Source of the DNA: Acidipropionibacterium virtanenii
GTDB lineage: Bacteria > Actinomycetota > Actinomycetes > Propionibacteriales > Propionibacteriaceae
Reading direction: 5' to 3'
Length of the DNA stretch: 64,000 bases
Assembly: GCF_003325455.1 (NCBI RefSeq)
Contig: NZ_CP025198.1
Coordinates: forward strand, 1,612,001 to 1,676,000
Every line of letters starts with the position of its first letter. The first letter of the stretch is position 1. Positions 41,514 to 60,550 of this stretch are shown in pieces. Below the pieces are notes generated by a model that searched no databases, was not told the origin of the DNA, and saw only the letters and a list, made by a program, of their open reading frames with translations. A program made the position numbers and the translations under genes.

Positions 41514-42632
41514 ATGCGCGAGTACCTCCTCGTCATGCTCGTCTCGGGCCTGACCACATATCTGCTGGCCGGTCTGTGCCGTCAGCTGGCGCTGCGGTTC
41601 GGCGCGGTGGCCCCGGTGCGGGCGCGGGACGTTCACACGGTCCCGGTGCCCTACTTCGGAGGCGTGGCGATGCTCGGCGGAGTGGTCCTGGCGTGCCTGC
41701 TCGCCCGTAACCTTCCCTTCCTGGGCCGGCACCTGCTGGTGGCCGACGACGCCCTGACGATCTGCCTGGCGGGGGCCGTGATCTGCGGTGTCGGCGTCAT
41801 CGACGATCTGCTGGATCTGCCGGCGCTGGCCAAGGCCGCCGGCCAGGTCCTGGCGGCGGGCATCGTGGTCACCGGGGGTGTGAGGCTGTTCTGGATCCCC
41901 CTGCCCAACTCGATATTCGCGCTCGGGACCCCCACCTCGATCCTCGTGACGGTCCTCATCATCGTGCTGTGCGCCAATGCGGTGAATTTCGTCGACGGGC
42001 TCGACGGGCTGGCCGCCGGAGTGGTGGCGATCGGTTCCCTGGCCTTCTTCTCCTACACCTACCTGCTCGCCCACGAGCAGGATTTCGTGGTGGCCACCAC
42101 CGCCTCCCTCATCACCGCGGTCACCGCCGGCGCCTGCATGGGATTCCTGCCGCACAACTGGCACCCCGCCCGCATGTTCATGGGAGACTCCGGGGCGTTG
42201 CTGCTGGGCCTGCTGCTGGCCTCGTCGACCATCTCGCTGACCGGCCAGGTGGACTCCTCGGCACTGAGCGCCCGGGACGGCGGGCTGGTTCCGAGCTACC
42301 TGCCGATCGTGCTGCCGCTGGTGATCCTCCTCATCCCGGTGCTGGATCTGGTGATGGGATACATCCGACGCACCTGGCACGGCACGTGGTTCTTCGTCGC
42401 CGATCGCAAGCATCTGCATCACCGCCTGCTGCAGCACGGTCACTCGCACGTCCGGGCGGTCCTGCTGATGTATCTGTGGACGACGGTGCTGTCCTTCGGC
42501 CCCGTCGTGATGGGCCTGGCGCGGACGTGGTGGTCGGTGGTGCTCACCGCGGTGGCCGTGCTGGTGGCGATCCTTCTCACAGTCGCGAACAACCACCCGT
42601 CCAGGTCCGGACCCGATCGGCGAACGGCCTGA
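41514..42632 (+). CDS. wecA: WecA/TagO-type polyprenyl-phosphate sugar-1-phosphate transferase
   Basis: This 372-residue protein has about eleven membrane helices and the catalytic Asp motifs of the MraY/WecA family: DDLLDLP (about 98), NAVNFVDGLDGLAAG (about 155-169) and a His-rich HLHHRLLQHGHS loop near 300. It moves a sugar-1-phosphate, usually GlcNAc-1-P, from UDP-sugar to polyprenyl phosphate and so starts cell-wall linkage units or surface glycans. It follows the YrdC gene by four bases. It could provide the lipid-linked primer for the polysaccharide locus that begins 90 bp downstream, but this is inference. Confidence 0.85.
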   Translation: MREYLLVMLVSGLTTYLLAGLCRQLALRFGAVAPVRARDVHTVPVPYFGGVAMLGGVVLACLLARNLPFLGRHLLVADDALTICLAGAVICGVGVIDDLLDLPALAKAAGQVLAAGIVVTGGVRLFWIPLPNSIFALGTPTSILVTVLIIVLCANAVNFVDGLDGLAAGVVAIGSLAFFSYTYLLAHEQDFVVATTASLITAVTAGACMGFLPHNWHPARMFMGDSGALLLGLLLASSTISLTGQVDSSALSARDGGLVPSYLPIVLPLVILLIPVLDLVMGYIRRTWHGTWFFVADRKHLHHRLLQHGHSHVRAVLLMYLWTTVLSFGPVVMGLARTWWSVVLTAVAVLVAILLTVANNHPSRSGPDRRTA

Positions 42633-42723: not shown

Positions 42724-43959
42724 ATGAGCGTCATCCGCGATCTCGGTGCAGCCGGTGAGAAAGTGCTCGGAGCGGCCGGGCGGGCCGTGCGGGTGCTGCG
42801 CGGAGAGGGCCCGGCCGGGCTGGCCCGGCGCGGCGTCCGCGCCGTCTACCGGTCTGTGGGGGCGGCGAGCCTGGATCTCCCGCTGCGCGACGCCGACATC
42901 GCCGACTCCACCGTCCTGGACCTGTCGCTGCCCGCCGACCGGCCGTTCCGGGGCCGTCCCGTCGAGGTGGGCTGGGTACTCACGCCGCCGGCCGCCGGAT
43001 CGGGCGGCCACACCACGCTGCTGCGGATGGTCGAGGCGACCGAGCGCGCCGGGCATCGTTGCACCCTCTTCCTCCATGACCGCTACGGCGGTGACATCGC
43101 GCGGCAGGAGGCCGTGATCCGGCAGTGGTGGCCCGACGTCCGGGCCCGGGTGCGCGGCGTCGAGGACGGCATCCGCGGGGTCGACGCCTGCGTGGCCTCG
43201 TCGTGGGAGTGCGCCCACGTCCTGGCGACGCGGGGCACCGGGCCGATGCGCAGGCTGTACTTCATCCAGGACTTCGAGCCCTACTTCTATCCCAGGGGAT
43301 CGCTCTACGCACTGGCCGAGGACACCTACCGGTTCGGCTTCCGGTGCATCGCCCTGGGCGAGATGGTGGCGCGGGCGCTGCGTCGCGAGATCGGCATCGA
43401 TCCTGACGTCACCGAGTTCGGGTGCGACACCGCGGTCTACCGGCTTCTCGAGGAGCGGCCCCGTGCCGGCGTCGTCCTCTACGCCAGACCCGATGTGCCG
43501 CGCCGCGGCTACTGGCTGGCCACGATGGCGCTGGAGAGATTCCACCTGAGCCATCCAGAGGCCGACATCCATGTGTACGGGGACAAGGTGGGCGATCTGC
43601 CCTTCCCCACGATCCAGCACGGGCGGATGACCCCCCCACAGCTCAACGAGCTCTACAACTCGTGCCGGGCGGGCCTGGCGATGTCCTTCACGAATATCTC
43701 GCTGGTGACCGAGGAGATGCTGGCTGCCGGGGTTCGCGTGGTCGCCAATGACCACGCCGACGCGCGGGCCGATCTGGTCAATGAGCACGTCGCCTGGGCC
43801 GCACCCTCCCCGGTGGCGCTCGCCGAGGCCCTCGGAAGGGCCTACGACAGGCCGACCGTGGATCAGGCCGCCATCGCCTCCTCGGTGAGGCAGGTGGGCT
43901 GGACGCGGGCCCAGGCCGACGTCGTGCGCATCCTCGAGGAGGAGGTCTACGGCGCCTGA
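42724..43959 (+). CDS. WsaF-like (GT-B) glycosyltransferase, probably rhamnosyl-type
   Basis: This 411-residue protein has an N-terminal nucleotide-sugar-fold half with SGGHTTLLRM (about 97-106) and YFIQDFEPYFYP (about 178-189). The C-terminal donor-binding half contains a VTEEMLAAG (about 322-330) segment. The IQDFEP motif and layout match the WsaF family, first described as an S-layer-glycan rhamnosyltransferase. Donor and linkage cannot be fixed here. It is the first gene of the polysaccharide locus; its last 13 bp overlap the oppositely oriented flippase gene. Confidence 0.78.
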   Translation: MSVIRDLGAAGEKVLGAAGRAVRVLRGEGPAGLARRGVRAVYRSVGAASLDLPLRDADIADSTVLDLSLPADRPFRGRPVEVGWVLTPPAAGSGGHTTLLRMVEATERAGHRCTLFLHDRYGGDIARQEAVIRQWWPDVRARVRGVEDGIRGVDACVASSWECAHVLATRGTGPMRRLYFIQDFEPYFYPRGSLYALAEDTYRFGFRCIALGEMVARALRREIGIDPDVTEFGCDTAVYRLLEERPRAGVVLYARPDVPRRGYWLATMALERFHLSHPEADIHVYGDKVGDLPFPTIQHGRMTPPQLNELYNSCRAGLAMSFTNISLVTEEMLAAGVRVVANDHADARADLVNEHVAWAAPSPVALAEALGRAYDRPTVDQAAIASSVRQVGWTRAQADVVRILEEEVYGA

Positions 43960-45449
43960 GACGGCCCGGGGCCGCGGATCTGAGCCGTCCTGGCCAGCAG
44001 CCACCTGCCCATTCCCACCAGGTAGACGGCCACCGCGCCGACTCCGCCCACCAGCAGGGCGAGGAGCGGCCGGGTGATGAGGTGCGATGCCGTCAGAGCG
44101 ACCAGGCAGGCCGGGACGGTGGCCAGTGTCGGGCGCAGGCAGGCTCGCAGCAGCGCCACCAGGCTCACCCCGGTGGAGCGGATGATGGCCAGGTAACCGG
44201 GCAGGATGCACACGGCCGAGGCCCCCACGTGTACCCATGCGGCTCCCACGATCCCGTGGCGGCTCGTCATGACGATCATCCCGGCGGTGAGCACGACGAT
44301 GGTGAGGATCTGGAGCCACAGGACCGGGCGGCTGCGCCCCAGGGCGTAGAGATAGCCCGAGAACAGGTCGAAGAGGACCCTCAGCGACCCGTACATCCCC
44401 AGCGCCGCGAGGACGGGAACCGACGGAGCCCACCTGGCTCCGTAGATGACGTGGACCAGGGGGCCTGCGAGGGCCGCCAGCGTGACGCCGGCGGGAAGGG
44501 CCATCGACCAGATCACCGCGGTGAGCATGGGGAGGGCCCGAGCGCTGTCGGCGACCCGGGAGGTGTAGGGCAGGGCGATTGAACGCACCATCTGCGACAG
44601 GGCGCTCATCGGCCAGTTGGCGATATTGAAACCCAGGACGTAGAAGCCGAGAGCGGTGGCTCCCGCCAGGCGGGCGATGACGACATTGTCGACGTTGAGC
44701 AGGATCCAGGTGAAGAGGTTCGCTCCCGCGACGGGCAGGCTGAACGCCAGGACGGCCCGCCATCGGGCCCGGTCCAGACCCAGCCTGGGACGCATCCGGG
44801 TGGCGACGAACTGGAGGGTGCTGGAGACCGCCTGGGCGGCGACCCTGCCGATGGCCAGGGAGAGCACTCCCAGCCCCGCGGCGATGAGGGCGAAGGTCAC
44901 CACGGTGGAGACGATGAGGTCGACCAGGCTGATGATGAACAGCTCGCGCTGCTGGAAACGCCGCAGCATCAGGCCGTACGGCACGAGGGACACCCCGGCG
45001 AGCAGCAGGGTCAGAGACAGCACGGCGATGGCACCGGCCGCCTCATGGTCGCCGAGCAGGGTCGCGAGCCGGCCGCTCAGCGCGACGGCGGCGACGGTGA
45101 GGCTCGTCCCGCTGATGAGCCCGAAGGTGGCCACGGTGGGCGCGATCCGGTCGGGCTCCTCGGAGCGGATGATCTCGGAGGACAGGCCCAGATCCGCGAC
45201 CGTCATGAGGATGCCCTGGACCGTGAGGGCGACGGCGTAGACGCCGAACTGGCCTGGGGTGAGGATGCGGGCCAGGACCACGCCGACGACCACGCTGCCC
45301 AGCCGCAGCACGACCGTGCTCACCCCGCTCCAGGCGGCTCCTCTGGCCGCCGTGGCCCCCAGGCCTGCGGAGCCGGGCTCGGAGGAATCCTCGGCGGAGG
45401 TCTGAGGAAGCAGTCCCATCATCGAGCCTCTCGTCGTCCCCCGCGTCAC
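43947..45449 (-). CDS. Wzx-type polysaccharide flippase (MATE/MOP superfamily)
   Basis: This 500-residue protein has 12-14 membrane helices and the polysaccharide-synthesis signature ARGAAWSGVSTVVLRLGSV at the start of helix 1, followed by LARILTPGQFGVYAVA (about 60-75). Such proteins flip polyprenyl-linked repeat units to the outer face for polymerisation. The GTG at 45449 is taken as start because TAGACT lies 9 bases upstream; ATGs at 45422 and 45419 are alternatives. Its 3' end overlaps the convergent glycosyltransferase gene by 13 bp. Confidence 0.87.
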   Translation of the reverse strand: MTRGTTRGSMMGLLPQTSAEDSSEPGSAGLGATAARGAAWSGVSTVVLRLGSVVVGVVLARILTPGQFGVYAVALTVQGILMTVADLGLSSEIIRSEEPDRIAPTVATFGLISGTSLTVAAVALSGRLATLLGDHEAAGAIAVLSLTLLLAGVSLVPYGLMLRRFQQRELFIISLVDLIVSTVVTFALIAAGLGVLSLAIGRVAAQAVSSTLQFVATRMRPRLGLDRARWRAVLAFSLPVAGANLFTWILLNVDNVVIARLAGATALGFYVLGFNIANWPMSALSQMVRSIALPYTSRVADSARALPMLTAVIWSMALPAGVTLAALAGPLVHVIYGARWAPSVPVLAALGMYGSLRVLFDLFSGYLYALGRSRPVLWLQILTIVVLTAGMIVMTSRHGIVGAAWVHVGASAVCILPGYLAIIRSTGVSLVALLRACLRPTLATVPACLVALTASHLITRPLLALLVGGVGAVAVYLVGMGRWLLARTAQIRGPGPSQAP

Positions 45450-45507: not shown

Positions 45508-47079
45508 TCAGCCGGCGGTCACCGCCGCGCCCCTGGCAGCGGTGGCGGCGGGGGAGTAGCGGTAGTTGTCGCGCCACTCGGCCCAGCCCGGACCGCCCTG
45601 GACGGAGGAGGGTCCCCAGCCGGTGCTGAGGAAGCGGTTGTTGACGGCCCGGGCGTCACGGTAGGTGCCGCCCGAGGAGGGCTGATTGAGGAAGAGGTTG
45701 TAGCCGCCCCCCTCGATGAGGTTGCCGTCGACGAGCACCGTGTCGATGTCCTCCCCGGTGGACTGGATGAACAGGCCCGCTGTGACATTGCCGTCGGCGA
45801 TGTCGAAGCGGTTGCGGGTGAACCGCGCCACGCGGTCGGGGTTCTCGTCGCGCATGAAGTCGCGCAGGGTGGCGGCCTCGTTGTGGGACTGCCCGTAGGA
45901 TCGCAGACCGGTGACGTAGTTCTGCTCGGCGATCGCATCGTGCTTCATACCGGTGCCGTAGAAGCAGATGCCGCTGCCCATGCCGTGCATGTAGTTGCGC
46001 TGCAGGGTCCCGGCGCCGCGGAAGGCGCAGGCCGCGGCTATCTGCGAGGCGGGCACCCCGGAGGCATCGATCTCGGAGTCACGGATGATGATGCTCTTCT
46101 GCGAGATCACCGGGCAGGAGTCGGCGCCGCAGACGAAATTCGAGACGATGGCGGCGGTGCCGGATGCGGCGGTGGCGCCACTGCGGGGCTGGATGCAGGA
46201 GCGTTCGACGACGATGTCGCCGTTGCGCAGATCGAGACCGCCCACGATGCGCACCCCGGAGATCCGGGTACCTGCGGCGGGGGTCAGTGAACCGGTGTAG
46301 AGCGGCAGGCTGGAGCAGCTCAGGCCGAAGGGCGCCAGGCCGACATTCCTGGCATTGAGCTGCCAGCCCATCAGGCCCGTGGCCGAGCTGGCCGCCGACG
46401 AGGTCGACGAGTTCGCCGTCGGGGTGGTCGTGCCGGGGCCCGTCGTCGGGGAGGGGGTCGGCGTCGGGGTGGCCGGCGCCGCCCGGGTCGGTGAGAAGAC
46501 CGTGTCAACCCAGTAGTTGCTGCCGCCGTAGGTGCTGCGGGGGAAGGCGGAGGAGCGGCTGTTGGTGTAGACGCCGGCGTTGCGCGGCATGGTCATGGTC
46601 CGGGTCGTCCGGGCTGCGGAGAAGTACCGGCGGGTCGTCGAGTAGGACCCTGAGCCCGCGAATGCCGAGACGACGTAGCCCTTGCCGGCCGACAGTCTCA
46701 CCGGTGAGTCGAGTTTGACGTTGATCCAGCCGGTTGCCGAGGTCCTGGAGACCGCGACCCGGGCCAGCCGGGTTCCGGCGTCATTCCACAGCGAGACACT
46801 GCTGGGCGTGGTCCGGGGATGGGATCGCGCCTTGTAGAAGCGCAGCGTGCTCACCGTCCCGTCGGTCGACGGCGTGAACGTCATGCCGAGCTCGACGGGG
46901 ATGCCCTCGTCGACATGCTCGAGATGCCCGGGGGCGGATGTGCCGAAGGTGGTGGATGCGGTGGCGTGGGCCAGGTCGGGGGCGGCCGCCAGGACTGTGC
47001 CCAGCGCGGCGGCGGCCGCGAGGACGGTGATCGCGGTCCGCGCTGTCCGGCGGCGGGGGGTGGTGGTCGTGCGTGTCAT
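45508..47079 (-). CDS. Exported DUF4082 + right-handed beta-helix protein
   Basis: This 523-residue protein starts with a twin-Arg-like, Thr/Arg-rich N-terminus and a hydrophobic Ala stretch (about 15-40) that looks like a signal peptide. A DUF4082 domain (about 43-195; LRFYKAR, ARVAVSRTSATGWINV, YVVSAFAG) comes next, then a Thr/Pro/Ser linker (about 200-235). The C-terminal domain (about 238-515) has the repeated short beta-turns of a parallel beta-helix. That domain is clearly paralogous to the lipoprotein at 49141-50166. Beta-helix proteins in such loci can bind, cleave or epimerise polysaccharide; no catalytic residues can be named. It lies divergent from the fused glycosyltransferase gene. 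Confidence 0.72.
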   Translation of the reverse strand: MTRTTTTPRRRTARTAITVLAAAAALGTVLAAAPDLAHATASTTFGTSAPGHLEHVDEGIPVELGMTFTPSTDGTVSTLRFYKARSHPRTTPSSVSLWNDAGTRLARVAVSRTSATGWINVKLDSPVRLSAGKGYVVSAFAGSGSYSTTRRYFSAARTTRTMTMPRNAGVYTNSRSSAFPRSTYGGSNYWVDTVFSPTRAAPATPTPTPSPTTGPGTTTPTANSSTSSAASSATGLMGWQLNARNVGLAPFGLSCSSLPLYTGSLTPAAGTRISGVRIVGGLDLRNGDIVVERSCIQPRSGATAASGTAAIVSNFVCGADSCPVISQKSIIIRDSEIDASGVPASQIAAACAFRGAGTLQRNYMHGMGSGICFYGTGMKHDAIAEQNYVTGLRSYGQSHNEAATLRDFMRDENPDRVARFTRNRFDIADGNVTAGLFIQSTGEDIDTVLVDGNLIEGGGYNLFLNQPSSGGTYRDARAVNNRFLSTGWGPSSVQGGPGWAEWRDNYRYSPAATAARGAAVTAG

Positions 47080-47125
47080 GAGCGTGGGACCTCTCCTGGT
47101 GGGGGCGGTGGTCCGTGACGTAGGA

Positions 47126-47208
47126 GTGGATGCTGTCCACTCAGACAGCTGAGATTAAGATAACAAAAACCTGAGAATTTTGGAAGTCTTGGGCGCTGAA
47201 TTCTCAGG
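47126..47208. promoter_or_regulatory. Divergent control region with three inverted repeats
   Basis: The 257-bp space between the divergent beta-helix and glycosyltransferase genes is unusually A/T-rich around 47150-47185. It carries GTGGA...TCCAC (47126-47140), CTCAG...CTGAG (47140-47153) and a longer repeat CCTGAGAATT...AATTCTCAGG (47170-47179 and 47199-47208, 19-base centre). A minus-strand promoter TTCCAA-17-TATCTT (47185-47157) overlaps the left arm of the long repeat. An operator role is inferred. Confidence 0.4.
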
Positions 47209-47248
47209 AACCTACTGCCATGCTCACAAAATGGCCTCGGCGCCCGGA

Positions 47249-47254
47249 TATACT
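47249..47254 (+). promoter_or_regulatory. -10 box (TATACT) for the plus-strand polysaccharide genes
   Basis: A near-consensus TATACT lies 82 bases before the ATG at 47337, predicting a leader of about 75 bases. It is the only convincing promoter for the long plus-strand gene run from 47337 onward. Confidence 0.45.
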
Positions 47255-47336
47255 GGCGGAGCGCCGTGGGCCGCCCGTGGATCTCGCACACCGATGAGTG
47301 GATTCCCGTTCAGGATGTACACAGTCAGGACGAGCA

Positions 47337-49154
47337 ATGGACACGAATGCGGCCGAGTCGGTCGATCGATCCCAGGAGCCCCGGTTCGCGGGTCCGGACG
47401 CAACGGTCGACGTCGCCGTCATCGTCGTCACCTACAACAGCGCCGGAGTGATCGAGGGCCTGGTCCGCTCCCTGCGCGAGGATGCCGGGGATCTGTCCCT
47501 GCGGGTCATCGCGGTCGACAACGCATCGACCGACGGCACCCCAGACGTGGTCGCCCGGATCGCCGACGTCACCGTGATTCCCGCCGGCGGGAACCTCGGC
47601 TACGCCGCGGGCATCAACATCGGGATGACGGCGGTCGGCGCTGCCGACGATGTGCTCATCCTCAACCCCGACGTCCGGATTCTGTCGGGCTGCCTGGCCG
47701 CCCTGCGCACCCGGCTGCGGGCCGGGGCGTCGTGCGCGGTCCCGGCCATCCTGGACTCCCGCGGCGAGCTCACGCAGTCGCTGCGGCGCGAGCCGACCCT
47801 CCTCGCCGCGGCCGGGGACGCCCTGCTGGGCAGCCGGTGGCCCACCCGCCCCGGAGCCCTGTCCCAGACGGTCCGCTCGTCGGAGGCCTATCGCGGCGCT
47901 CATCCGATCGACTGGGCCACCGGGGCCGCTCTTCTCATCGATCGCCGAGCCGCCGAAGAGCTGGGGCGGTGGGATGAGCGCTTCTTCCTCTACTCCGAGG
48001 AGACCGACTTCTTCCACCGTCTGCGCGCGTCGGGCCGCCAGGCGTGGTTCGAGCCCGAGGCGCAGGTCGTCCACGCCGAGGCCGGCTCGGGCAGGCCCCC
48101 CGAACTGGTGGCCCTCACCATCGTCAACGCCGTCCGCTACGCACAGAAGCATCATCCTCGCACCGCCCGTCCACTGCAGGGCATTCTGGCCCTTCACGAG
48201 CTGCGCAGATGGCGTGATCCCGACCACCGGGTGGCCCTGCAGGCGCTGCTGTCGCGACGCCGTTGGGCGGGACTTCCGCACGCGACCGGTACCGGCCGCC
48301 AGAGCGTCGACCATCTCCTCGTGACCCGGTTCAATCTGCCCTCCCACGGGCCGGAGAGCCTCATCCGTGCCCGGGAGGGCTGGCTCCAGAACCGCATCGA
48401 GCTCTTCGAGCGCTACACCGTACCGTCGGTGCGCTCCCAGACGAACCAGGATTTCTCGTGGCTGGTGTATCTGGATCCGCTGAGCCCTCAGTGGCTCCTG
48501 GACCGGCTCGCCCCGCTGGTCGACGAGGGACTTCTCGTGGCGCGATACCGGGAGGAGGTGGGATGGCAGGACGTCGCCGCAGACGCCGGCGAGGTGACGG
48601 GTGGGCGGGGCGGGATGCTCATCACCACCAACCTGGACAATGACGACGCCCTGGCCGTCGATTTCGTGGATCGGCTCCGCGAGGCGGCGCTCGACGGTCG
48701 CCGCGGGGCGGTCTACCTGGCCGACGGGCTGATCCGGGTGGACGGCCGCCTCTACCGGTGGCGGGATCCGGTCAACGCCTTCTGCAGTGTCATCGAGACC
48801 TGGGAGGCGCCGCAGACGGCCTGGCGGGACTGGCACATCCTGCTGCGCCGGCACATGGCCGTGACGTCTCTGGAAGGCCCTCCGGGATGGCTCCAGATCG
48901 TTCACGGCAGGAACGTCAGCAACCGTATCCGCGGCCGGCTGGCCGACCCGGCGTCCTGCCGCACGCTCTTCCCGGGCTCCCTGGACGACGTCGAGTCCCC
49001 TGGTCGACACGATCTCCTGATCGACGCCCTGGTCGCCCGCCCGGCGCGGGAGACTCGCGAGATCGTCCGCGGCGCCGGCAAGCGGATACTGCTGGGAGCC
49101 ATGGGCAAGAACGGGCTGGAGCAGTTGAAGGAACGTTTCCATGCGGCGCGCTGA
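47337..49154 (+). CDS. Two-domain glycosyltransferase: GT2 fused to putative rhamnosyltransferase
   Basis: This 605-residue protein joins two enzymes. Residues about 23-260 are a GT2 of the rhamnosyl type: VIVVTYNSAG, VDNASTDGT, NLGYAAGIN, LNPDV, TGAALLIDRRA and FFLYSEETDF, all typical of GT-A transferases. Residues about 327-590 begin LLVTRFNLPSHGPESLIR and resemble the 'putative rhamnosyl transferase' family, with TTNLDNDDAL as a likely metal/nucleotide-binding site. It could therefore add two successive sugars. Donors are not evident. The stop overlaps the lipoprotein gene start by 14 bp. Confidence 0.8.
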   Translation: MDTNAAESVDRSQEPRFAGPDATVDVAVIVVTYNSAGVIEGLVRSLREDAGDLSLRVIAVDNASTDGTPDVVARIADVTVIPAGGNLGYAAGINIGMTAVGAADDVLILNPDVRILSGCLAALRTRLRAGASCAVPAILDSRGELTQSLRREPTLLAAAGDALLGSRWPTRPGALSQTVRSSEAYRGAHPIDWATGAALLIDRRAAEELGRWDERFFLYSEETDFFHRLRASGRQAWFEPEAQVVHAEAGSGRPPELVALTIVNAVRYAQKHHPRTARPLQGILALHELRRWRDPDHRVALQALLSRRRWAGLPHATGTGRQSVDHLLVTRFNLPSHGPESLIRAREGWLQNRIELFERYTVPSVRSQTNQDFSWLVYLDPLSPQWLLDRLAPLVDEGLLVARYREEVGWQDVAADAGEVTGGRGGMLITTNLDNDDALAVDFVDRLREAALDGRRGAVYLADGLIRVDGRLYRWRDPVNAFCSVIETWEAPQTAWRDWHILLRRHMAVTSLEGPPGWLQIVHGRNVSNRIRGRLADPASCRTLFPGSLDDVESPGRHDLLIDALVARPARETREIVRGAGKRILLGAMGKNGLEQLKERFHAAR

Positions 49155-50166
49155 CCGGAGTGGTGGGCGAATGCCGTGGCTCGCCCCGGCGGGCTTGACG
49201 GCCGCCCTCTGCCTGGCCATGGCCGGCTGTGGCGGACCCGCCCCGGGCAGTGCGGTCTCAGGGTCGCCGGCGCCGTCGAGTCCGGCGGCCTCGTCGGGGG
49301 GTCGGGCGCCCACCGAGGGGTGGACGATCACCGCGGCCAACGTCGGCCTGCGGCGCCTGGGCCTGCGCTGCGATGGGCTCCCGGCCTACCGGGGGCCCAC
49401 CAAGGTACCCGCCGGCACGACGATCTCGGGCCGGCTCATCAGCACCGGCCTGGATCTGTCCGCCGGCCGGATCACCATCGAGAGGTCCTGCGTCCGGCCG
49501 ACCACGGCGGCCCCCGGCATGCCGATCCTCGGCACCACGGACTACGACAGGATGCGTCCGCCACCCGCGAAGGTGATCATCCGGGACACCGATATCGACG
49601 GCTCCAGGCTGGATACCGGGTCCGCGGCACGGGCCACCGGATTCATCGGGGTGGCGGACCTGGAGAGGAACTACATCCACCGGTTCGGCAGCGGCATCGC
49701 CGTCATGAACGCCGGATCCGGACTCGACTCACTGGTCGAGCACAATTACGTCACCGGGCTCGTCGCGGTGGGGGACCCGGCCAAGGACGGCACCCATTCG
49801 GACGCCTTCACCGTGCGCGACTTCGATATCGCCAAGAAGCCCGGCCGGACGCTGATCGTGCGCCACAACCGGTTCGACTGCGACTCCGGCGCGGACACCG
49901 GCGCACTGTTCATCCAGACCTACGCCGGGTCGATCGGCAATGTGCTCGTGGAGGGGAATCTCCTCGAGGGGGGCGGATATCAACTGGGTCTCAATCAGGC
50001 GAACCACCCCTACAGTAATGTGCGTGCCGTCAACAATCGGTTCAGCGGAACCGGTTGGGGACCGGCCTACGTCCAGGGCGGAGCCGGCTGGACCCGATGG
50101 GAGGGCAATCATCTCCACGGCGCCGGCGGCGTGGGGGTTCAGGGCGCAGCGGTGGCCCGACCATGA
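49141..50166 (+). CDS. Beta-helix lipoprotein, paralogue of the exported DUF4082 protein
   Basis: This 341-residue protein has a signal peptide with lipobox LAMAGC (Cys about residue 30), a Ser/Pro/Gly spacer and a beta-helix domain from about 59. Aligned with the C-terminal domain of the gene at 45508-47079 it shares, in order, IERSC, IIRD, NY.H, GSGI, NYVTGL, NRFD, FIQ, EGGGY, LNQ, VNNRF and TGWGP..VQGG. It would sit on the outer membrane-facing surface close to the polymerisation machinery. The ATG at 49141 has an AAGGAA site; a second ATG at 49171 is possible. Function unknown. Confidence 0.75.
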   Translation: MRRADRSGGRMPWLAPAGLTAALCLAMAGCGGPAPGSAVSGSPAPSSPAASSGGRAPTEGWTITAANVGLRRLGLRCDGLPAYRGPTKVPAGTTISGRLISTGLDLSAGRITIERSCVRPTTAAPGMPILGTTDYDRMRPPPAKVIIRDTDIDGSRLDTGSAARATGFIGVADLERNYIHRFGSGIAVMNAGSGLDSLVEHNYVTGLVAVGDPAKDGTHSDAFTVRDFDIAKKPGRTLIVRHNRFDCDSGADTGALFIQTYAGSIGNVLVEGNLLEGGGYQLGLNQANHPYSNVRAVNNRFSGTGWGPAYVQGGAGWTRWEGNHLHGAGGVGVQGAAVARP

Positions 50167-50230: not shown

Positions 50231-50944
50231 ATGAGTTTCCAGGCGGTGATGGGCACAGCGGCGCGACGGTGGTACGTCGTCGTGGCGGCCGTGCTGTGCG
50301 CTCTTGGAGTCGGGTACATGTGGATGCGGGACGGCGGCTGCTACAGCGCCGCGACGACGGTGAGCTTCACTCTGCCGGCCCGTTCGGCCCTGCTGCCCGA
50401 GAGCGGCCGGGAGGACGGGAGCGTCATCGCCTTCGCAGGGGCCGTGGCGGGAGAGATCAACCAGGGCAGGGAGCCCGCGACCTACGCCTCCGACGACGCT
50501 CCCCTCTACGGGGTGGGTGTGCGGCAGGGGGTGCTGGTAGCGATGCCGAACTCCGGCGGGCAGTGGTCATCCATGTACGCCAGGGCCGACATCGAGATCC
50601 AGGTCGTGGGGCGCAGCCGCGAGTGGGTGGAGATGACCCGCCGCGCCACCATCCAGAAGGTTCTCGCGGTGTCCAGGGAACGCCAGGTCTCGGCCTACTC
50701 GGACCCGCAGAGATTCATCGTCCCCACCGTCATGCCCCTCACCAGCGGCATTCAGCACGTGACCGTCTCCCGGACGGAACAGCTCCTGGCGTTCTGCGCG
50801 CTGGTGAGCGCCGGAATGCTGGTGGGCACCTCGGGTGCCGTGATGTTGGACCGGGCGTGGGCCCGGTACCGAACAGCCCAGCGCCGACCAGCCCAGTACC
50901 GAACAGCCCAGAACCGATCTGACGACGGAAGGCCCTCCGCATGA
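50231..50944 (+). CDS. Wzz/CapA-like chain-length protein 1
   Basis: This 237-residue protein has two membrane helices (about 12-30 and 178-198) enclosing an external domain, the topology of polysaccharide co-polymerases. The sequence is divergent: no clear Wzz Pro/Gly motif. The C-terminal cytoplasmic tail is short, basic and contains a 10-residue repeat. No BY-kinase domain or Tyr cluster is present. It overlaps the next, similarly built gene by 4 bp, so the two are probably partners. The ATG at 50231 has an AAGGG site. Confidence 0.65.
   Translation: MSFQAVMGTAARRWYVVVAAVLCALGVGYMWMRDGGCYSAATTVSFTLPARSALLPESGREDGSVIAFAGAVAGEINQGREPATYASDDAPLYGVGVRQGVLVAMPNSGGQWSSMYARADIEIQVVGRSREWVEMTRRATIQKVLAVSRERQVSAYSDPQRFIVPTVMPLTSGIQHVTVSRTEQLLAFCALVSAGMLVGTSGAVMLDRAWARYRTAQRRPAQYRTAQNRSDDGRPSA
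50866..50911 (+). repeat. 30-bp-period coding repeat in the first Wzz-like gene
   Basis: GTACCGAACAGCCCAG occurs at 50866-50881 and again at 50896-50911, and the intervening bases also resemble it. It encodes two copies of YRTAQ in the cytoplasmic tail. Such a short in-frame repeat could vary in copy number between strains without breaking the gene. Confidence 0.6.
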
Positions 50945-51774
50945 CCGTCATCCAGACTCTGCGCGGACTCCTGCGACGCTGGTACATCCTCGTCGCGGGC
51001 CTGGTGATCGCCGCCGCCGCGGCGGCGGTGGTCTGGAGCGTCGTGCCCGCGACCTATACGCGGACCTCGACCCAGATCCTCCTTCCGGGTGCCGGAATGG
51101 TGCCCACCGGGAGCAACCCCTACATGTATGTCGGCGGGCTGGTGCCCGCAGCCGATATCGTCGTGCGCGGCCTGGGGTCGAGCAATGTGATCGACGAGGT
51201 GGTCAGGGGCAGGCCCACCACCAGCGTCCAGGTGACCCGCGATCCGACGACCTCGGGACCGGTGATCCTCATCACCGTGGAGTCGCGCAGCGATGCCGAC
51301 GCGGCCGCCGCGCTGTCCGCCATGAACCAGCGCACCGCAACGATTCTGGACACCCTGCAGGCCGAGGAGAGCATTCCCCAGCGGCAGCGCATCTCCGTCG
51401 TGACCGTCTCCGTCGACAAGCGCGGGATCATCGGCCAGCGGACCCGGCTCCTGGCCACCGGGGCCGCCGGGGCGGGGGTGCTCGCGCTGGCCGTCCTGAT
51501 CGCCTCCTTCGTCGAAGGGATCGGCCCGGGCTCACGCGGAAAGAACCGGATGCCTGAATCCGAGGGGCGGGCCGAGGAGGACGGCGAGGAGACCCAGGGC
51601 GGGGAGGATCAGGCTGAGGAGGCCCGGGCCGAGGAGGATCCTCGGAGTGCCTCAGTCGATCCCGTGGAGTCGGCCCCAGCACCGCCGGACCCCCCAGTAC
51701 CGCCGGACCCCGCCGCGGAGGAGAGCCTTCCCGACTCGAGGAGCAACCGTGCCGACCGGGCCTCCATCGGCTGA
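50941..51774 (+). CDS. Wzz/YveK-like chain-length protein 2 with acidic Pro-rich tail
   Basis: This 277-residue protein starts with LRGLLRRWYILVAG, a membrane helix (about 15-35), then an external domain and a second helix (about 165-188). The layout is that of YveK/CapA-type co-polymerases. The cytoplasmic tail of about 85 residues is highly acidic, then Pro-rich (APAPPDPPVPPDP). There is no Walker motif and no Tyr cluster, so the usual kinase partner is not fused here. Its ATG overlaps the first Wzz-like gene and the polymerase GTG lies inside its 3' end. Confidence 0.72.
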   Translation: MTVIQTLRGLLRRWYILVAGLVIAAAAAAVVWSVVPATYTRTSTQILLPGAGMVPTGSNPYMYVGGLVPAADIVVRGLGSSNVIDEVVRGRPTTSVQVTRDPTTSGPVILITVESRSDADAAAALSAMNQRTATILDTLQAEESIPQRQRISVVTVSVDKRGIIGQRTRLLATGAAGAGVLALAVLIASFVEGIGPGSRGKNRMPESEGRAEEDGEETQGGEDQAEEARAEEDPRSASVDPVESAPAPPDPPVPPDPAAEESLPDSRSNRADRASIG

Positions 51775-53146
51775 GCCCGGCCCCAGGGGGTTCGGGGCGG
51801 TCGGCATGCTGACGGTCCACATCACCCTGCTCCTGGCCGTCCCGTCCAACCTCACCGTGGCGGGCATGGGCACCTACGGCCGGCCGGCGATGCTCTGGGG
51901 GCTCGTGCTCCTGGGATGGTGGGTGCTGTGGAGACTGGAGGGCGGCGTCCCCCCTGCCGGACGAGGCATCGGACCGGCGAGGATCGCGGTGCTCCTGCTG
52001 GTCCTGGTCATCCTGATGAGCTTCGCCCACGCGCTGCTGCGGGGCCAGCCGGCCGATCAGATCAGTCCGGCGATCTCGGCCCTGATGCGGACCGCGTCCT
52101 GGTGCGGGGTATTCCTGGTCGCGATGGACGGCCTGATCGATTCCGACGATGTCGTGCGACTGGTGCGTCGGCTGGTCGTCCTCACCGGGATCGTGGCCGC
52201 CCTCGGCCTGGCGCAGTTCGCCACCCACAGGACCTTCCTGGCCTGGGCCGAGGGGATACCGGGGATGGCCTTCGGAACCGACGACGTCGCGTCGCGGGGC
52301 GTGTTCGCGCGCGCCGTCGGCACCGCGACTCATCCCCTGGAGTTCGGGGCGGTGGTGGTCGGGATGCTGCCGCTGGCCATCGCGGCCGCCATGGGGAACG
52401 GGTTCAGGAGCGGCCGGAGGATGCGGATCGGCTGGTGGCTCCCGGCAGGGATCGCGGTCCTCGTGGCCCTGGTCTCTGTCTCCCGTTCGGCGATCATCGG
52501 GCTCGTGGTGGCGATCCTGGCCTCGATGCCCGGCATGGCGCCCAGGGCGCGGCGGATCCTGGCGATCCTCGGTGTGCTGGCGGTCGCGGTCGTGGCGGTG
52601 GCCGTGCCGGGAATGGCCACGACCGTGATCACGCTGTTCACCGGCGCCGAGGATGACCCCAGCACCCGGTCACGCGCCGCCGCGCTCTCCCGCGTTCCCG
52701 AGTTCCTGTCGGCCTCCCCGCTGCTGGGGGCCGGATTCGGGACTTTCCTGCCGCGCTACTACATCTTCGATGACCAGTGGGTCCTCACCCTGGTCGAGCT
52801 GGGCATCGCGGGGGCCGCCGCGCTGGCCGCGGTCTTCCTGGCCTCCGGGTGGAGCGCGGTCCTCGCGGCCAGGCGCCTGGATCCCGCCGCGGCCGCCGTC
52901 GCCCGCGCATCGGCGGCATCCGTCCTCACCCTCGCCGTGCTGTACGCCTTCTTCGACGCGCTCGGGTTCCCGATGTCGGCCGGCCTGCTCTTCCTGGTGG
53001 CCGGCCTGTGCGCTGCGCTGTACCGGATGAGTACCCGCTCGAAGACATCCGTGCAGTCCTCCGAGGTCAATGTGAACAGGAACCACCTCATGGGAGACTT
53101 GGAGCAGAGGAGACGGCCTGCCCCGGATCCTCACGGCATGGAGTGA
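51749..53146 (+). CDS. Wzy/O-antigen ligase-type polymerase
   Basis: This 465-residue integral membrane protein has about eleven helices. A large external loop near 310-350 contains STRSRAAALSRVPEFLSASPLLGAGFGTFLP, typical of the O-antigen ligase/polymerase family. It should link exported repeat units or transfer the glycan to an acceptor. The GTG at 51749 has GAGGAG five bases upstream and overlaps the previous gene by 26 bp. A hydrophilic C-terminal tail of about 45 residues follows the last helix. Confidence 0.8.
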   Translation: MPTGPPSAEPGPRGFGAVGMLTVHITLLLAVPSNLTVAGMGTYGRPAMLWGLVLLGWWVLWRLEGGVPPAGRGIGPARIAVLLLVLVILMSFAHALLRGQPADQISPAISALMRTASWCGVFLVAMDGLIDSDDVVRLVRRLVVLTGIVAALGLAQFATHRTFLAWAEGIPGMAFGTDDVASRGVFARAVGTATHPLEFGAVVVGMLPLAIAAAMGNGFRSGRRMRIGWWLPAGIAVLVALVSVSRSAIIGLVVAILASMPGMAPRARRILAILGVLAVAVVAVAVPGMATTVITLFTGAEDDPSTRSRAAALSRVPEFLSASPLLGAGFGTFLPRYYIFDDQWVLTLVELGIAGAAALAAVFLASGWSAVLAARRLDPAAAAVARASAASVLTLAVLYAFFDALGFPMSAGLLFLVAGLCAALYRMSTRSKTSVQSSEVNVNRNHLMGDLEQRRRPAPDPHGME

Positions 53147-53189: not shown

Positions 53190-54536
53190 ATGCGAAAGCG
53201 TCAGCGACGACCGAACACAGACCGTGACAGGCACATTCTGATCATTGTGCAGAACCTGCCCGTACCCTTGGACCGCAGAGTGTGGCTGGAGTGCCAGGCG
53301 CTGCGGTCCAACGGTTACAACGTCAGTGTCATCTGCCCGAAAGGCCCGGGAGATCCTGCCCATGAGGTCATTGACGGCGTCCACATCCACAAATACCGTC
53401 CGGCCCGCGAGGCCCGGGGCCTGGCCGGCTTCGCACTCGAGTTCGCCTACTCATGGCTGTGCACCGCCTTCCTCTCGGTGAGGGTCGCCAGATCGCTGCC
53501 CTTCCGGGTCATCCAGGCCTGCAATCCGCCGGACACCTACTGGCTGCTCGCCCTCCTGTGGCGCCCGGCCGGCGTGGCATTCGTCTTCGACCACCACGAC
53601 CTGAATCCCGAGCTGTTCATCTCCCGGTTCGGAACCCCCACCTCGGCCGTCCAGCGGGCGGAGTTCGTCCTTCTGTCGCTGTTGGAGAAACTCACCCATC
53701 GGACGGCGGACCGTGTCATCTCGACCAACGAGTCCTACCGGCAGATCGCCATCCGCCGCGGGCGGGTGGATCCCGGGCACGTCACGGTGGTGCGCAGCGG
53801 CCCGGACACCCGGGGGATGAGACCGAGGTATCCACGGCGACCACGGCCGGCCGACGCCGTCGAACTGGTCTATTTGGGCATCATGGGGCCCCAGGACTGC
53901 GTCGAGAACGTGCTCCACGTCATGGTCGAGCTCGTGCACCGGAGGGGGCGCACCGACGTCCACGCCACCCTCATGGGATTCGGCGACTCCCTGGAGAAGT
54001 TGAAGAAGATGGCCCATCGGCTCGATCTGGACGACTGGGTCACCTTCACCGGCCGCGCCGACCGCCCGATGATCGCCGAGCAGTTGAGCCGCGCCGATAT
54101 CGGCCTGTGTCCCGACCTGAAGACCCCCCTCAACGACCTGTCGACGATGAACAAGACGATGGAGTACATGGCCTTCGCACTGCCATCGGTCTCATTCGAT
54201 CTCACCGAGACCATGGTGAGCGGCGGGGACGCCATCCTGGTGGTGCCGTCGGGGGACCTGTCGGCCTTCGTCGAGGCGGTCGAGAAACTCGTCGTCGACC
54301 GGGATCTCAGGCTGAGCCTGGCCCGGAAGGCCCGTTCCCGGGTCGTCGAGGAGCTCGACTGGCGTCCCCAAGCCGCCGCCTACGTCGGGGTGTACGACTC
54401 CCTGCTGGGGATCGACCGTCCGGAAGGAGTGGTCCAGCGGCACCTGCCTCCCCGCACCGAGGACGAATGGGGAAACCCTCTGGTCCCGCTGGACGACGAG
54501 GACGAGCTCGACCGGTTCATCCTGGAGCGCCGATGA
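53190..54536 (+). CDS. GT4 glycosyltransferase, WbuB-like
   Basis: This 448-residue GT-B enzyme shows IIVQNLPVPLDRRVWLECQAL at the start (about 18-38), DHHDLNPELF (about 131-140) and the C-terminal donor-site segment LNDLSTMNKTMEYMAFALPSVSFD (about 312-335). It belongs to family GT4, close to WbuB-like transferases of surface-polysaccharide clusters. The donor sugar cannot be read from sequence. The ATG follows GAGGGAG by four bases and the stop overlaps the next ATG. Confidence 0.82.
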   Translation: MRKRQRRPNTDRDRHILIIVQNLPVPLDRRVWLECQALRSNGYNVSVICPKGPGDPAHEVIDGVHIHKYRPAREARGLAGFALEFAYSWLCTAFLSVRVARSLPFRVIQACNPPDTYWLLALLWRPAGVAFVFDHHDLNPELFISRFGTPTSAVQRAEFVLLSLLEKLTHRTADRVISTNESYRQIAIRRGRVDPGHVTVVRSGPDTRGMRPRYPRRPRPADAVELVYLGIMGPQDCVENVLHVMVELVHRRGRTDVHATLMGFGDSLEKLKKMAHRLDLDDWVTFTGRADRPMIAEQLSRADIGLCPDLKTPLNDLSTMNKTMEYMAFALPSVSFDLTETMVSGGDAILVVPSGDLSAFVEAVEKLVVDRDLRLSLARKARSRVVEELDWRPQAAAYVGVYDSLLGIDRPEGVVQRHLPPRTEDEWGNPLVPLDDEDELDRFILERR

Positions 54537-55735
54537 GGGGGAAAGCCCCGCGCGGCCCGCGGGGCGGCGGCGAGGGATTCATCTGGTTCGCGGCCCAGGA
54601 CTGGTGGTACCACAACCGGGCGCACTCGGACTTCCAGCTGATGCGCCAGGTCGCCCGGAGCCGCCCGGTGCTGGTGGTCAACAGCCTGGGGCTGCGCGCC
54701 CCCGGGCCTCGGAACAGCACGAGACCCGGCAGACGCATCCTGCGCAAGCTGCGCAGCATGACCAGATTCCTGCGGCGTCCGGTGCCCGATCTGCCCCGCT
54801 TCCACGTGTACACGCCTCTGATGCTCCCGGTCTACGGCCGCAGCGGCGCGCTTCTGCGCCTCAATGCGTGGCTCATCCGACTCCAGGTACGTGCCGCGGC
54901 CCGGCTGTCGGGCATCGGTGGCGCACCGGTGATCGGGGCGACGATACCGACCGCCTGGCCGGTGGTGGAGCCGATACCCCGTTCGACTCTCATCTTCAAC
55001 CGTTCGGACCTCCAGTCGGCCTTTCCCGAGGCCGACGGAGGCTGGGTCGCCGGCCTCGAAGGGGAGTTGCTGACCCACAGCGACCGGGTGCTCTACGTGA
55101 GCCACGAGTTGATGAGACGGGACCGTCCGGTGGTGGGCGACAGGACCCTGTTCATCGACCACGGGGTGGATCTGGACCATTTCAGCCCCACCGGCCCGGT
55201 TCATCCCCTCATCCGGCAGATCCCCGGGCCACGGATCGGCTTCTTCGGCGGGATCGACGACTACGTCGTCGATCTGGATCTCATCGCGCGGACCGCCCGT
55301 GGGCTGCCGGAGGCCAGCGTCGTGCTGATCGGCGACGCCACCTGCCCGATGGACGGGCTCACGGCTCTGCCGAACGTCCACTGGCTCGGGTTCCAGGACT
55401 ACCAGGAGATCCCCGCGCTGGGACGCGGCTTCGATGTCGCGATCATGCCGTGGCTCGGCAACGAGTGGATCCGCTTCGCCAATCCGGTCAAGCTCAAGGA
55501 GTACCTGGCGCTCGGCCTTCCGGTGGTGACCACCGAGTACCCCGAGGTCGAGGACTGGCGCCATCTTGCCCGGGTGGCGCCGACGCCGGGGGCCTTCGTC
55601 GACGAGGTGGCCGGGGCGCTGGCCGATCCGGGCGATCCCGGGCCGCGGCTTCGGGCCGTGGCGCCGTACTCCTGGGCGGGGAGGGCCGACGTCCTACTGG
55701 CCGCAGCGGCACCGGTTGCGGGGGGCGAGCGCTGA
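54533..55735 (+). CDS. GT-B glycosyltransferase (family 1/4-like)
   Basis: This 400-residue protein begins with FIWFAAQDWWYHNRAHSDFQL, a motif of glycosyltransferases in exopolysaccharide clusters. The donor-binding half has RIGFFGGIDDYVVDLDLI (about 236-253) and PVKLKEYLALGLPVVTT (about 319-335), where the Glu of KLKEYLALG is the expected donor-phosphate-binding residue. The ATG overlaps the previous stop (ATGA) and its own stop shares a base with the amidotransferase ATG (TGATG). Confidence 0.8.
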   Translation: MRGKAPRGPRGGGEGFIWFAAQDWWYHNRAHSDFQLMRQVARSRPVLVVNSLGLRAPGPRNSTRPGRRILRKLRSMTRFLRRPVPDLPRFHVYTPLMLPVYGRSGALLRLNAWLIRLQVRAAARLSGIGGAPVIGATIPTAWPVVEPIPRSTLIFNRSDLQSAFPEADGGWVAGLEGELLTHSDRVLYVSHELMRRDRPVVGDRTLFIDHGVDLDHFSPTGPVHPLIRQIPGPRIGFFGGIDDYVVDLDLIARTARGLPEASVVLIGDATCPMDGLTALPNVHWLGFQDYQEIPALGRGFDVAIMPWLGNEWIRFANPVKLKEYLALGLPVVTTEYPEVEDWRHLARVAPTPGAFVDEVAGALADPGDPGPRLRAVAPYSWAGRADVLLAAAAPVAGGER

Positions 55736-57591
55736 TGTGCGGGATCGCAGGAGTGCTGGGCCTTCGTGACGCGGCCTGCCGGGCGGGGCTGGAGAGGATG
55801 GCCGCATCCCTGCGGCACCGGGGCCCGGACGAGACCTCGGTCTGGGCCGACGGCCGACTCGGCCTGGCCCACACCCGGCTGTCCATCATCGACATCGCCG
55901 GCTCCCACCAGCCGATGCACTCGGTCGACGGCACATGGAGCATCGTGTTCAACGGGGAGATCTTCAACTACCGGGATCTGCGCAAGGATCTCGACTACCC
56001 CTTCGCGACCGAGGGCGACACCGAGGTGCTGCTCGCCGGGCTCGTCCGCCACGGCATCGGATTCGTGGACCGGCTTCGCGGTCAGTTCGCCTTCGCCGCA
56101 TATCACCACCCGGGCTCGACCCTCCACCTGGTGCGCGACCGGCTCGGCGTGCTGCCCCTGTACTACCGCCACGATGCCGACGGGATCGTGTTCGGCTCCG
56201 AGATCAAGGCGATCAACGCCTACACCGGAGCTGCACCGACCGTCGACCTCGACAGCCTCGACGCGTACCTGGCGGGCCGCTCGGTGCCGGCGCCCTTCAC
56301 CCTCTACGCGGGTGTGGCGAAGCTCCCGCCCGGCCATCGTGCGGAGATCGGGGAGACCGGGAGCCCGGAGGTGCATCGGTACTGGGCGCCGCCTCCTGCC
56401 GACCACACGATCGCCGGCCCGGCCGAGGCGATCGAGATGGCGGACCTGAGGATCCGTGACGCGGTGGGGTCCGCGCTCGTGGCCGACGTGCCGGTCGGCT
56501 CCTACCTGAGCGGCGGGGTGGACAGCAGCCTCATCGTCGCGATCATGAAGCAGTTGCGCGGCGGCGCGCCGGTCGACACCTTCGCCGCCGGTTTCGGCGA
56601 CCCCCGCTTCGACGAGCTGGAGCAGGCCCGGCGGGTCGCCGACCGGGTCGGCACCCGGCACCACACGGTTCAGGTGCGGGCCGAGGACTTCCTCGACCTG
56701 TGGCCGGCCCTCACCTGGCACCGTGACGCGCCGATCTCCGAACCGGCCGACATCGCCGTCTTCCGGCTGGCCGAGAGCGCTCGGGAGCACGTCAAGGTGG
56801 TGCTGAGCGGGGAGGGCGGTGACGAACTGTTCGGCGGATATCCCAAGTACCGGTACGCCTCCTGGGCCCGGGCGGCCCGACGGGTGCCGCCGGGACCGCG
56901 ACGCGGCGCCGGGCGGATCCTCGACGCCCGCCTGCCGGCCCGGATGAGCCGTCATCGCACCGCGCTGCGAGCCCTGGTCGCCGGTTCCGAGGCGGACCAG
57001 CTCGCCACCTGGTTCGCCCCCTTCACCAGCGAGGAGCGGCGGGCCCTGATCGGGCACACCCCCGCCCCGGAGCGGAGGCGCCGGCCGCCCGAGGGGGCCG
57101 ACGACATCGACCGGATGCTGCGCCACGACCTGGCGAGCTGGCTGCCCGACAACCTGCTGGAGCGCGGCGACAGGATGACGATGGCGGCCTCGCTCGAGCT
57201 GCGCCCGCCCCTGCTGGATCATCGGTTGGTCGAGTTCGCGTTCGGCCTGCCCTCGGACCTGAAGGTCCGCGACCGGGTACCGAAATGGCTGCTCAAACAG
57301 GTCGCCAGGCGCTACCTTCCCGAGGAGATCGTCTTCCGGCCCAAGGTCGGGTTCCGGGTCCCGCTGGACCGGTGGTTCCGGGCCGGACTGCGCGAGACCA
57401 CCCGTGACCGTCTGACCGGCCAGGACTCCTTCGTCGGCTCGGTGCTCGACCGTCGAACCGTCTCCAGGCTGCTGGACCGTCACGAGAGCGGACGCCACGA
57501 CGAGGAGATCCGCATCTGGACGCTGCTGTCACTTGAGGTCTGGCACGAGGTCTGCGTGGCGGGCTGGGCGAGCCCTCGGCGCGCGCCGTGA
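55735..57591 (+). CDS. AsnB-type glutamine-dependent amidotransferase
   Basis: This 618-residue protein has an N-terminal Ntn glutaminase with Cys2 as nucleophile (MCGIAGVLG), RHRGPDE, LSIIDIAGSHQP and NGEIFNY. The C-terminal synthetase has the ATP pyrophosphatase loop SGGVDSS (about 258-264) and LSGEGGDELFGGYPKY (about 358-373). The chemistry is ATP-activation of a carboxyl and amidation with ammonia from glutamine. Inside a polysaccharide locus such enzymes usually amidate uronic acids or other carboxylated residues rather than aspartate; that is inference. All catalytic parts look intact. Confidence 0.85.
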   Translation: MCGIAGVLGLRDAACRAGLERMAASLRHRGPDETSVWADGRLGLAHTRLSIIDIAGSHQPMHSVDGTWSIVFNGEIFNYRDLRKDLDYPFATEGDTEVLLAGLVRHGIGFVDRLRGQFAFAAYHHPGSTLHLVRDRLGVLPLYYRHDADGIVFGSEIKAINAYTGAAPTVDLDSLDAYLAGRSVPAPFTLYAGVAKLPPGHRAEIGETGSPEVHRYWAPPPADHTIAGPAEAIEMADLRIRDAVGSALVADVPVGSYLSGGVDSSLIVAIMKQLRGGAPVDTFAAGFGDPRFDELEQARRVADRVGTRHHTVQVRAEDFLDLWPALTWHRDAPISEPADIAVFRLAESAREHVKVVLSGEGGDELFGGYPKYRYASWARAARRVPPGPRRGAGRILDARLPARMSRHRTALRALVAGSEADQLATWFAPFTSEERRALIGHTPAPERRRRPPEGADDIDRMLRHDLASWLPDNLLERGDRMTMAASLELRPPLLDHRLVEFAFGLPSDLKVRDRVPKWLLKQVARRYLPEEIVFRPKVGFRVPLDRWFRAGLRETTRDRLTGQDSFVGSVLDRRTVSRLLDRHESGRHDEEIRIWTLLSLEVWHEVCVAGWASPRRAP

Positions 57592-60400: not shown

Positions 60401-60453
60401 GTCCACCACTCCACTCAGGGTCGTCCGAACCGGGTGTGCGGAAACTGATCCAC

Positions 60454-60544: not shown

Positions 60545-60550
60545 TGCGCC

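Follow-up and report, generated by a model that had tools for sequence, protein, structure and literature searches.

Two homologous, differently anchored beta-helix proteins encoded in an exopolysaccharide gene cluster of Acidipropionibacterium virtanenii

Why would an exopolysaccharide gene cluster encode two related exported proteins on either side of a glycosyltransferase? In this computational study, we addressed this question in a window of 64,000 nucleotides from Acidipropionibacterium virtanenii (the whole stretch analysed, positions 1,612,001-1,676,000 of a 3.43 Mb genome in one contig; feature positions are counted from its first letter). A Wzx/Wzy-type exopolysaccharide cluster extends from a WecA-like gene at 41514 to approximately 58931, and the pair is encoded within it. 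The first protein (523 amino acids; 45508..47079, minus strand) has an N-terminal signal peptide recognized by eye, a DUF4082 domain (residues 54-191), a Pro/Thr/Ser linker, and a C-terminal beta-helix (residues 238-523). The second is a predicted lipoprotein of 341 amino acids (49141..50166, plus strand), whose lipobox ends at C30 and whose beta-helix domain starts at approximately residue 60. Between them lies a fused glycosyltransferase (47298..49154, plus strand) composed, according to Pfam, of a GT2 half and a Rhamno_transf (PF11316) half; its 3' end overlaps the lipoprotein frame, read from the first ATG, by 14 bases. We propose, with a probability of roughly 0.6, that the pair are exported polysaccharide-processing enzymes of one beta-helix family and that they act on the polymer that their own cluster produces.

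Homology, fold and anchors of the two proteins

The original prediction described the two exported proteins as paralogs sharing a colinear set of motifs. BLASTP of the two exported proteins aligned 276 residues at 44% identity (E 2e-66 for this single comparison), linking the last 286 residues of the DUF4082 protein (its helix domain; 45508..46368, minus strand) to the lipoprotein, and the local alignment score was 561, whereas none of 500 shuffles scored above 68. This likeness is beyond chance; the two proteins are homologous, and the coordinates and strands originally given for the three genes are right. GSGI, NYVTGL, EGGGY, LNQ, TGWGP, and VQGG are present in both proteins, whereas IERSC occurs only in the lipoprotein, the DUF4082 protein having VERSC instead. 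Neither a third relative of the helix (E 0.01) nor a second DUF4082 was found in the source genome.

A shared fold had been set beforehand as a test, and both proteins are predicted by AlphaFold2 to form a parallel beta-helix. The lipoprotein domain (30-row alignment) was modeled as a right-handed parallel beta-helix with a predicted local distance difference test score (pLDDT) of 92.6 and a predicted template modeling score of 0.92. The model of the DUF4082 protein (12 rows) has a C-terminal parallel beta-helix mostly at pLDDT 80-95 but falling to 50-63 over residues 301-330; the remainder outside the helix is poor, and the mean is 66.7. VIA-align matched the lipoprotein domain to the alginate epimerase/lyase 8ja4 (Z 20.0, root-mean-square deviation 2.8, 221 residues), K1 capsule lyase (Z 19.8), AlgE4 (19.4), a GH87 glucanase (18.9), AlgG (18.1), and RbmB (17.5). 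Z values were 17.5-20 across the 50 entries listed, most of which are parallel beta-helix polysaccharide-active enzymes, and because entries within 1 Z are tied, the fold gives a class and not a reaction. The helix of the DUF4082 protein matched 8jaz (Z 19.4, 227 residues). Judged from the models, both proteins have the fold seen in polysaccharide lyases, C5-epimerases, glycosidases, and tailspikes, and also in some non-enzymes. Among family profiles, Pfam Beta_helix (PF13229) scored 20.4 bits for the lipoprotein, below the curated cut-off of 25.9 that some distant relatives pass, and no match was listed for the DUF4082 protein. PHROGs contained no family for the pair, and in NCBIfam the lipoprotein had a single weak hit of no relevance and the DUF4082 protein had none.

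The lipid anchor originally assigned to the second protein is consistent with its sequence, in which a predicted lipobox, AMAGC, ends at C30 after a hydrophobic stretch. The rule used for lipobox calls was home-made and not SignalP; by this rule the DUF4082 protein has no lipobox, and one is present in all 17 Lentzea copies and in five of the six Propionibacteriaceae lipoprotein-type copies. DUF4082 (PF13313), for which we know of no assigned function, matched residues 54-191 in Pfam with an E value of 2.9e-38 (131.5 bits against a cut-off of 28.4; profile positions 7-143 of 143). The corresponding part of the model (residues 59-198, low confidence) had weak VIA-align matches to PHR domains (Z 8.1-8.3), the lectin-like domain of Cwp84 (7.7), the lectin domain of lectinolysin (6.6), and a carbohydrate-binding module (6.4), with phage capsid, fiber, and baseplate proteins interspersed among them (6.5-7.4). 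This is only a hint that DUF4082 may be a carbohydrate-binding, lectin-like beta-sandwich. Binding of the first protein to the wall through DUF4082, as originally suggested, is not borne out by a low-confidence model with weak, mixed matches at Z 6-8, and the LPxTG sortase motif is absent from both proteins.

Gene context, distribution and history of the family

Relatives were collected by scanning 84,980 species genomes with one pattern in a search that was not exhaustive; 81 stretches matched, and 40 of them were relatives. These 40 loci are not independent, as 17 are from Lentzea, L041 and L045 come from the surveyed genomes G004 and G003, and L042 and L062 belong to the same genome as separate contigs; L071 and L072, which have no helix protein in the gene calls, enter the context count only. 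With the 11 polysaccharide proteins of the window as tblastn queries (E 1e-6), at least two kinds of homolog were found in 28 of the 40 helix loci, one in 4/40, and none in 8/40, compared with 0/20 control stretches having any such homolog. The controls were arbitrary 20-kb stretches from three genomes, taken at round coordinates and unmatched to the genomes of the loci. Homologs of the pair thus lie mainly in polysaccharide loci, and this second test set beforehand, like that of the shared fold, does not refute the original prediction. At least two cluster homologs were present in 16/17 Lentzea loci (the exception is a cut contig) and in 12/23 of the others. Homologs of the asparagine-synthase-like amidotransferase of the cluster (AsnB) occur in 15/17 Lentzea loci, and a module of AsnB and two GT4 glycosyltransferases (GT4a and GT4b) accompanies most near relatives: the same 15/17 in Lentzea, Cellulomonas (L044), Tessaracoccus, A. 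jensenii, and an Acidipropionibacterium metagenome-assembled genome (MAG). AsnB and GT4a homologs are also present in G530, a member of a third genus of the family. No AsnB was found at the loci of distant relatives within the approximately 10 kb covered on each side.

In a survey of 198 genomes of the family, eight matched the helix at E 1e-6, two weakly and six strongly. Strong matches came from Tessaracoccus bendigoensis (G455), G530, and four of the five Acidipropionibacterium genomes surveyed, and each of these six encodes both DUF4082-linked and short helix forms. A frameshift interrupts the short form in the Acidipropionibacterium MAG (G003). The Tessaracoccus DUF4082 gene is divided between two contig ends, and our rule finds no lipobox in the short form of that genome. 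The Wzy of the cluster, sought in seven genomes, is present in all six that bear the pair. In G002, the only genus genome without the pair, Wzy and the fused glycosyltransferase were also not found, which is one negative case. Phylum samples contained the helix family in 3/396 genomes (profile A2) and 6/296 (profile A4), with the source genome counted in both. A first contig scan with a single sequence found no relative, a plasmid search gave no match, and the lipoprotein had no match among 50,697 phage records; five relatives in viral contigs are distant, at 24-26% identity.

The original prediction regarded the pair as a duplication; the phylogenetic analysis does not support a simple one, as the two helix domains belong to separate lineages. 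The DUF4082-linked helix of the window groups with Lentzea lipoproteins (support 98/97), whereas the lipoprotein helix groups with those of Tessaracoccus and G530 (93/91). Local duplication was rejected: placing the ten Acidipropionibacterium and Tessaracoccus helix domains in one clade gave an approximately unbiased test p value of 0.002, and the twelve including G530 gave 0.004. Single clades of the six Propionibacteriaceae DUF4082-linked helices (p 0.004) and of the six lipoprotein-type helices (p 0.0003) were likewise rejected, with Cellulomonas DUF4082-linked and Lentzea lipoprotein copies in the tree outside these two groups; all four p values are optimistic because the groups were chosen after the first tree. 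By these trees, the pair in the window is not a recent duplicate. In G530, the two helices are sisters (100/100 in the first tree and 100/99 in a later one), and its DUF4082 domain groups with those of Acidipropionibacterium and Tessaracoccus (92/81, long branches); the pair of forms has thus been renewed in this genome, which gene conversion or a fresh fusion would each explain. Both parts of a Sphaerisporangium DUF4082-helix fusion are placed in other clades, so either the fusion has at least two origins or one of its parts was swapped.

Conserved residues and proposed activity

Candidate catalytic residues emerged when 50 helix domains were aligned (32 from near and 18 from far relatives; the broken lipoprotein of L045/G003 was left out). 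H219 of the lipoprotein, in the triplet H219-S220-D221 (49795..49803, plus strand), is invariant in 50/50 domains, and Y280 is present in 49/50. Position 221 is D in 42/50, E in five, N in two, and T in one, and is thus acidic in 47/50. The five with E are the Acidipropionibacterium and Tessaracoccus DUF4082-linked copies, represented in the window by H399-N-E401 (45877-45885, minus strand). Asn at 243, 273, 299, and 323 is invariant in 50/50, as would be predicted for the turns of a beta-helix. R226, D227, R236, R244, Q259, and E276 are invariant in all 32 near relatives and not in the 18 far ones; because most near relatives adjoin AsnB, these are candidate substrate-specific residues. Between the window and G001, the ratio of nonsynonymous to synonymous changes (dN/dS, by a home-made Nei-Gojobori count) is 0.14 for the DUF4082-linked helix and 0.24 for the lipoprotein helix, against 0.06-0.30 for six other cluster genes, so both helix domains are under purifying selection. 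A location of H219 (model residue 163) on known structures by straight interpolation of the VIA-align ranges was discarded and is not used as evidence: it fell near residue 153 of AlgE4 (2pyg) and 318 of AlgG (4nk6), presumably close to the catalytic D/H residues (the title of 4nk8 names D317A), but was off by 10-20 residues in other entries such as 4nk8 and AlgE6 (5lw3).

How might such a pair work? Chain synthesis by Wzy takes place at the outer surface of the membrane, and the lipoprotein would be positioned there to cut or edit the growing polymer. The DUF4082-linked copy, with what may be a lectin-like beta-sandwich, would work on polymer already released or on the matrix. In chemical terms, the proteins may be lyases, C5-epimerases, or hydrolases, in which the invariant His and the D or E two residues after it would serve as catalytic groups. 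We slightly favor a lyase or epimerase over a hydrolase, since most near relatives are beside AsnB and the Lentzea locus L055 also has a UDP-glucose/GDP-mannose dehydrogenase (it was the single Lentzea locus scanned), so that the polymer may hold an (amidated) uronic acid. According to its title, one study cited in PMC7650540 reportedly concerns a diamino-uronic acid from the wall polysaccharide of a propionibacterium; none of these hints settles the reaction. The original interpretation is plausible and is partly supported by these data, better than before; that differently anchored copies perform two stages of one action is what we infer from them.

The closest known parallel is RbmB of Vibrio cholerae, presented in one report (PMC11637428) as a lyase of Vibrio polysaccharide (VPS) that is encoded in the biofilm gene cluster, cuts the polymer of its own cell, and is predicted to be a beta-helix. 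It shares with our pair the parallel beta-helix, a place in the biofilm cluster of a Wzy/Wzx-like system, and, as predicted for the pair, action on its own polymer; its structure has since been solved (the match at Z 17.5 above). RbmB differs in being a single protein, whereas two anchored forms occur here, and the activity of the latter is a prediction. Apart from the RbmB paper and a Vibrio phage preprint, our literature search found no beta-helix proteins in such clusters. The alginate epimerases and lyases AlgG, which is encoded with the genes for its polymer, and AlgE4 are alike in fold (Z approximately 18-20) and differ in that the window pair has no DPH motif, no sequence match, and a Gram-positive host. 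The GH87 alpha-1,3-glucanases were the first and third Foldseek matches for the lipoprotein domain, with E values of only 5e-3 and 2e-2; the first, Agl-KA, we take to be a GH87 enzyme. Their VIA alignments include the N-terminal cap (from model residue 7), at 18% identity for 7c7d and 12% for 6k0m. Phage tailspikes and capsule depolymerases also share the fold (Z approximately 18-20), in contrast to the lack of any phage-record match for the lipoprotein.

Several observations weigh against polysaccharide processing by the pair. Neither protein matches any solved chain by sequence, even with the 30-row profile at E 10, and both are without DPH, the motif of alginate epimerases. The acidic partner of the His is missing in three of the 50 domains. 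Eight of the 40 loci have no cluster homolog, and in the regions scanned the copies in Saccharibacteria (L046) and Spirochaetes (L064) are surrounded by ordinary genes. Proteins resembling the fused glycosyltransferase, mostly as one half only, occur in 39/198 family genomes (E 1e-20) and are far commoner than a strong helix match (6/198). The uronic-acid hint is weak: the source genome has two UDP-sugar dehydrogenases, both outside the cluster, which say little because such enzymes are also found in G002, without the pair, and in 13/14 control genomes. In addition, the adhesin PfbA (Z 17.8) and NosD (Z 18.2), which are non-enzymes, are near-tied among the best fold matches of the lipoprotein domain, so the fold alone is no proof of catalysis.

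This last point leads to the alternative that both proteins are non-catalytic polysaccharide binders, the lipoprotein holding the polymer at the membrane and the DUF4082 protein cross-linking or carrying it in the matrix. Adhesins such as PfbA have the same fold, other members of the family carry SLH, CWB2, LamG, or Ig/RTX domains like matrix scaffolds, and the catalytic set consists of candidate residues. However, the His shared by all 50 domains, the acidic residue close to it in 47/50, and R226, D227, Q259, and E276 in 32/32 near relatives look like a working site; we consider binding without catalysis unlikely. It is improbable that only one copy is an enzyme and the other a regulator or inactive. 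The E that replaces D in the five Acidipropionibacterium and Tessaracoccus DUF4082-type helices and their long common branch (1.0 changes per column) would fit a changed role, but this helix evolves more slowly than that of the lipoprotein by dN/dS and retains the His, R, D, Q, and E shared by the near relatives. A ligase attaching or transferring the polymer to the wall or another acceptor is highly improbable. In its favor, the pair is exported, differently anchored, and in the cluster, and none of the three LytR-Cps2A-Psr (LCP) matches in the source genome is near it, but these three could serve from elsewhere, and we know of no beta-helix ligase of such a kind.

Returning to polysaccharide processing, a more specific version may be advanced as a doubtful, tentative proposal. 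A new family, marked by the invariant His with D/E two places on, would edit Wzy-made, amidated-uronic polymers at two places, the lipoprotein acting on nascent and the lectin-linked form on released chains. The two forms would be kept paired, divergent helix lineages having come together as a pair on more than one occasion, and the change from H-x-D to H-x-E in the DUF4082 form could mean a different reaction, e.g., epimerization beside cleavage. Enzymes that cut or edit the exopolysaccharide of their own cell set chain length, release, and biofilm texture, and to our knowledge few are known in Gram-positive bacteria. If the proposed activity is true, the pair would add a family without a solved relative by sequence, extending from Propionibacteriaceae to Lentzea, and would offer a simple test case for membrane-bound and lectin-linked copies of one enzyme per cell in a genus used in food fermentation.

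Other genes of the cluster and other helix loci

The remaining cluster genes were assigned as follows. At lower coordinates than the pair are a WecA/MraY-like phosphosugar transferase (Glycos_transf_4; 41514..42632, plus strand), a WsaF-like glycosyltransferase (42724..43959, plus), and a Wzx-type flippase (Polysacc_synt_3; 43947..45449, minus). A Wzz-like chain-length protein (50941..51774, plus) matched Pfam Wzz below the cut-off (E 0.058); the open frame directly 5' of it (49940-50944, start approximate) is similar to it by eye and has no Pfam match. The Wzy-type polymerase (Wzy_C; 51647..53146, plus) is followed by GT4a (53190..54536, plus), GT4b (54533..55735, plus; start approximate), AsnB (55732..57591, plus), and a third GT4 glycosyltransferase, GT4c (57588..58931, plus). 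A PIG-L-type deacetylase gene (58955..60793, minus) and an AMP-binding gene come after the cluster. Five of the six genomes with the pair encode the GT2-Rhamno_transf fusion in a single frame. The sixth is the MAG (L011/L045), where Wzx, the fused glycosyltransferase, Wzy, and the lipoprotein gene each appear to be split, probably by sequencing errors. In seven other family genomes, the two halves match separate places.

No polysaccharide cluster was seen on a Polyangiaceae contig (6.9 kb), two Saccharibacteria contigs, and a Spirochaetes contig, and three of the four Sphaerisporangium loci had no match to the polysaccharide set of the window. The two Saccharibacteria-labeled MAGs encode 526-amino-acid beta-helix proteins with identical first residues (L046:7263-8843 and L047:1945-3525), approximately 49% identical to the lipoprotein domain of the window. 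The L046 helix gene has a G+C content of 0.53, against 0.50-0.52 nearby, on a contig that also holds pheS, pheT, and a RelA/SpoT-type gene. Saccharibacteria live on actinobacteria, and their helix protein could act on the polymer of the host.

The helix is joined to DUF4082 in Cellulomonas (L044) and Sphaerisporangium (L070), LamG in Saccharibacteria (L046), SLH in G107, CWB2 in G344, and Ig and RTX repeats in Bradyrhizobium (L068). Two or three helix proteins per locus were found in the window group, G530, Bradyrhizobium (L067-L069), Planomonospora (L074), an Acidimicrobiia MAG (L079), G107, and G344. In Planomonospora both helix proteins have a lipobox, so opposite anchoring, although repeated elsewhere, is no rule. 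One polysaccharide locus of G107 (L039, G107:C1:1785000-1804900) has three helix proteins, one with SLH repeats; a fourth is approximately 6 kb beyond it and a fifth far off. In Bradyrhizobium (L067-L069), one short and one long helix gene are approximately 3 kb apart and adjoined by a GT2 homolog, with an acyltransferase and a methyltransferase also in L067; the Ig-like and RTX repeats are in the long protein of L068. Finally, proteins of approximately 1350 amino acids with a C-terminal DUF4082 are encoded near the Sphaerisporangium DUF4082-helix genes (L070:2680-6720 and L077:10741-14817, with similar ones in L073 and L078), and that of L070 contains three DUF4082 stretches, a DMFA2_C (dimethylformamidase-like) domain, and Ig-like domains.

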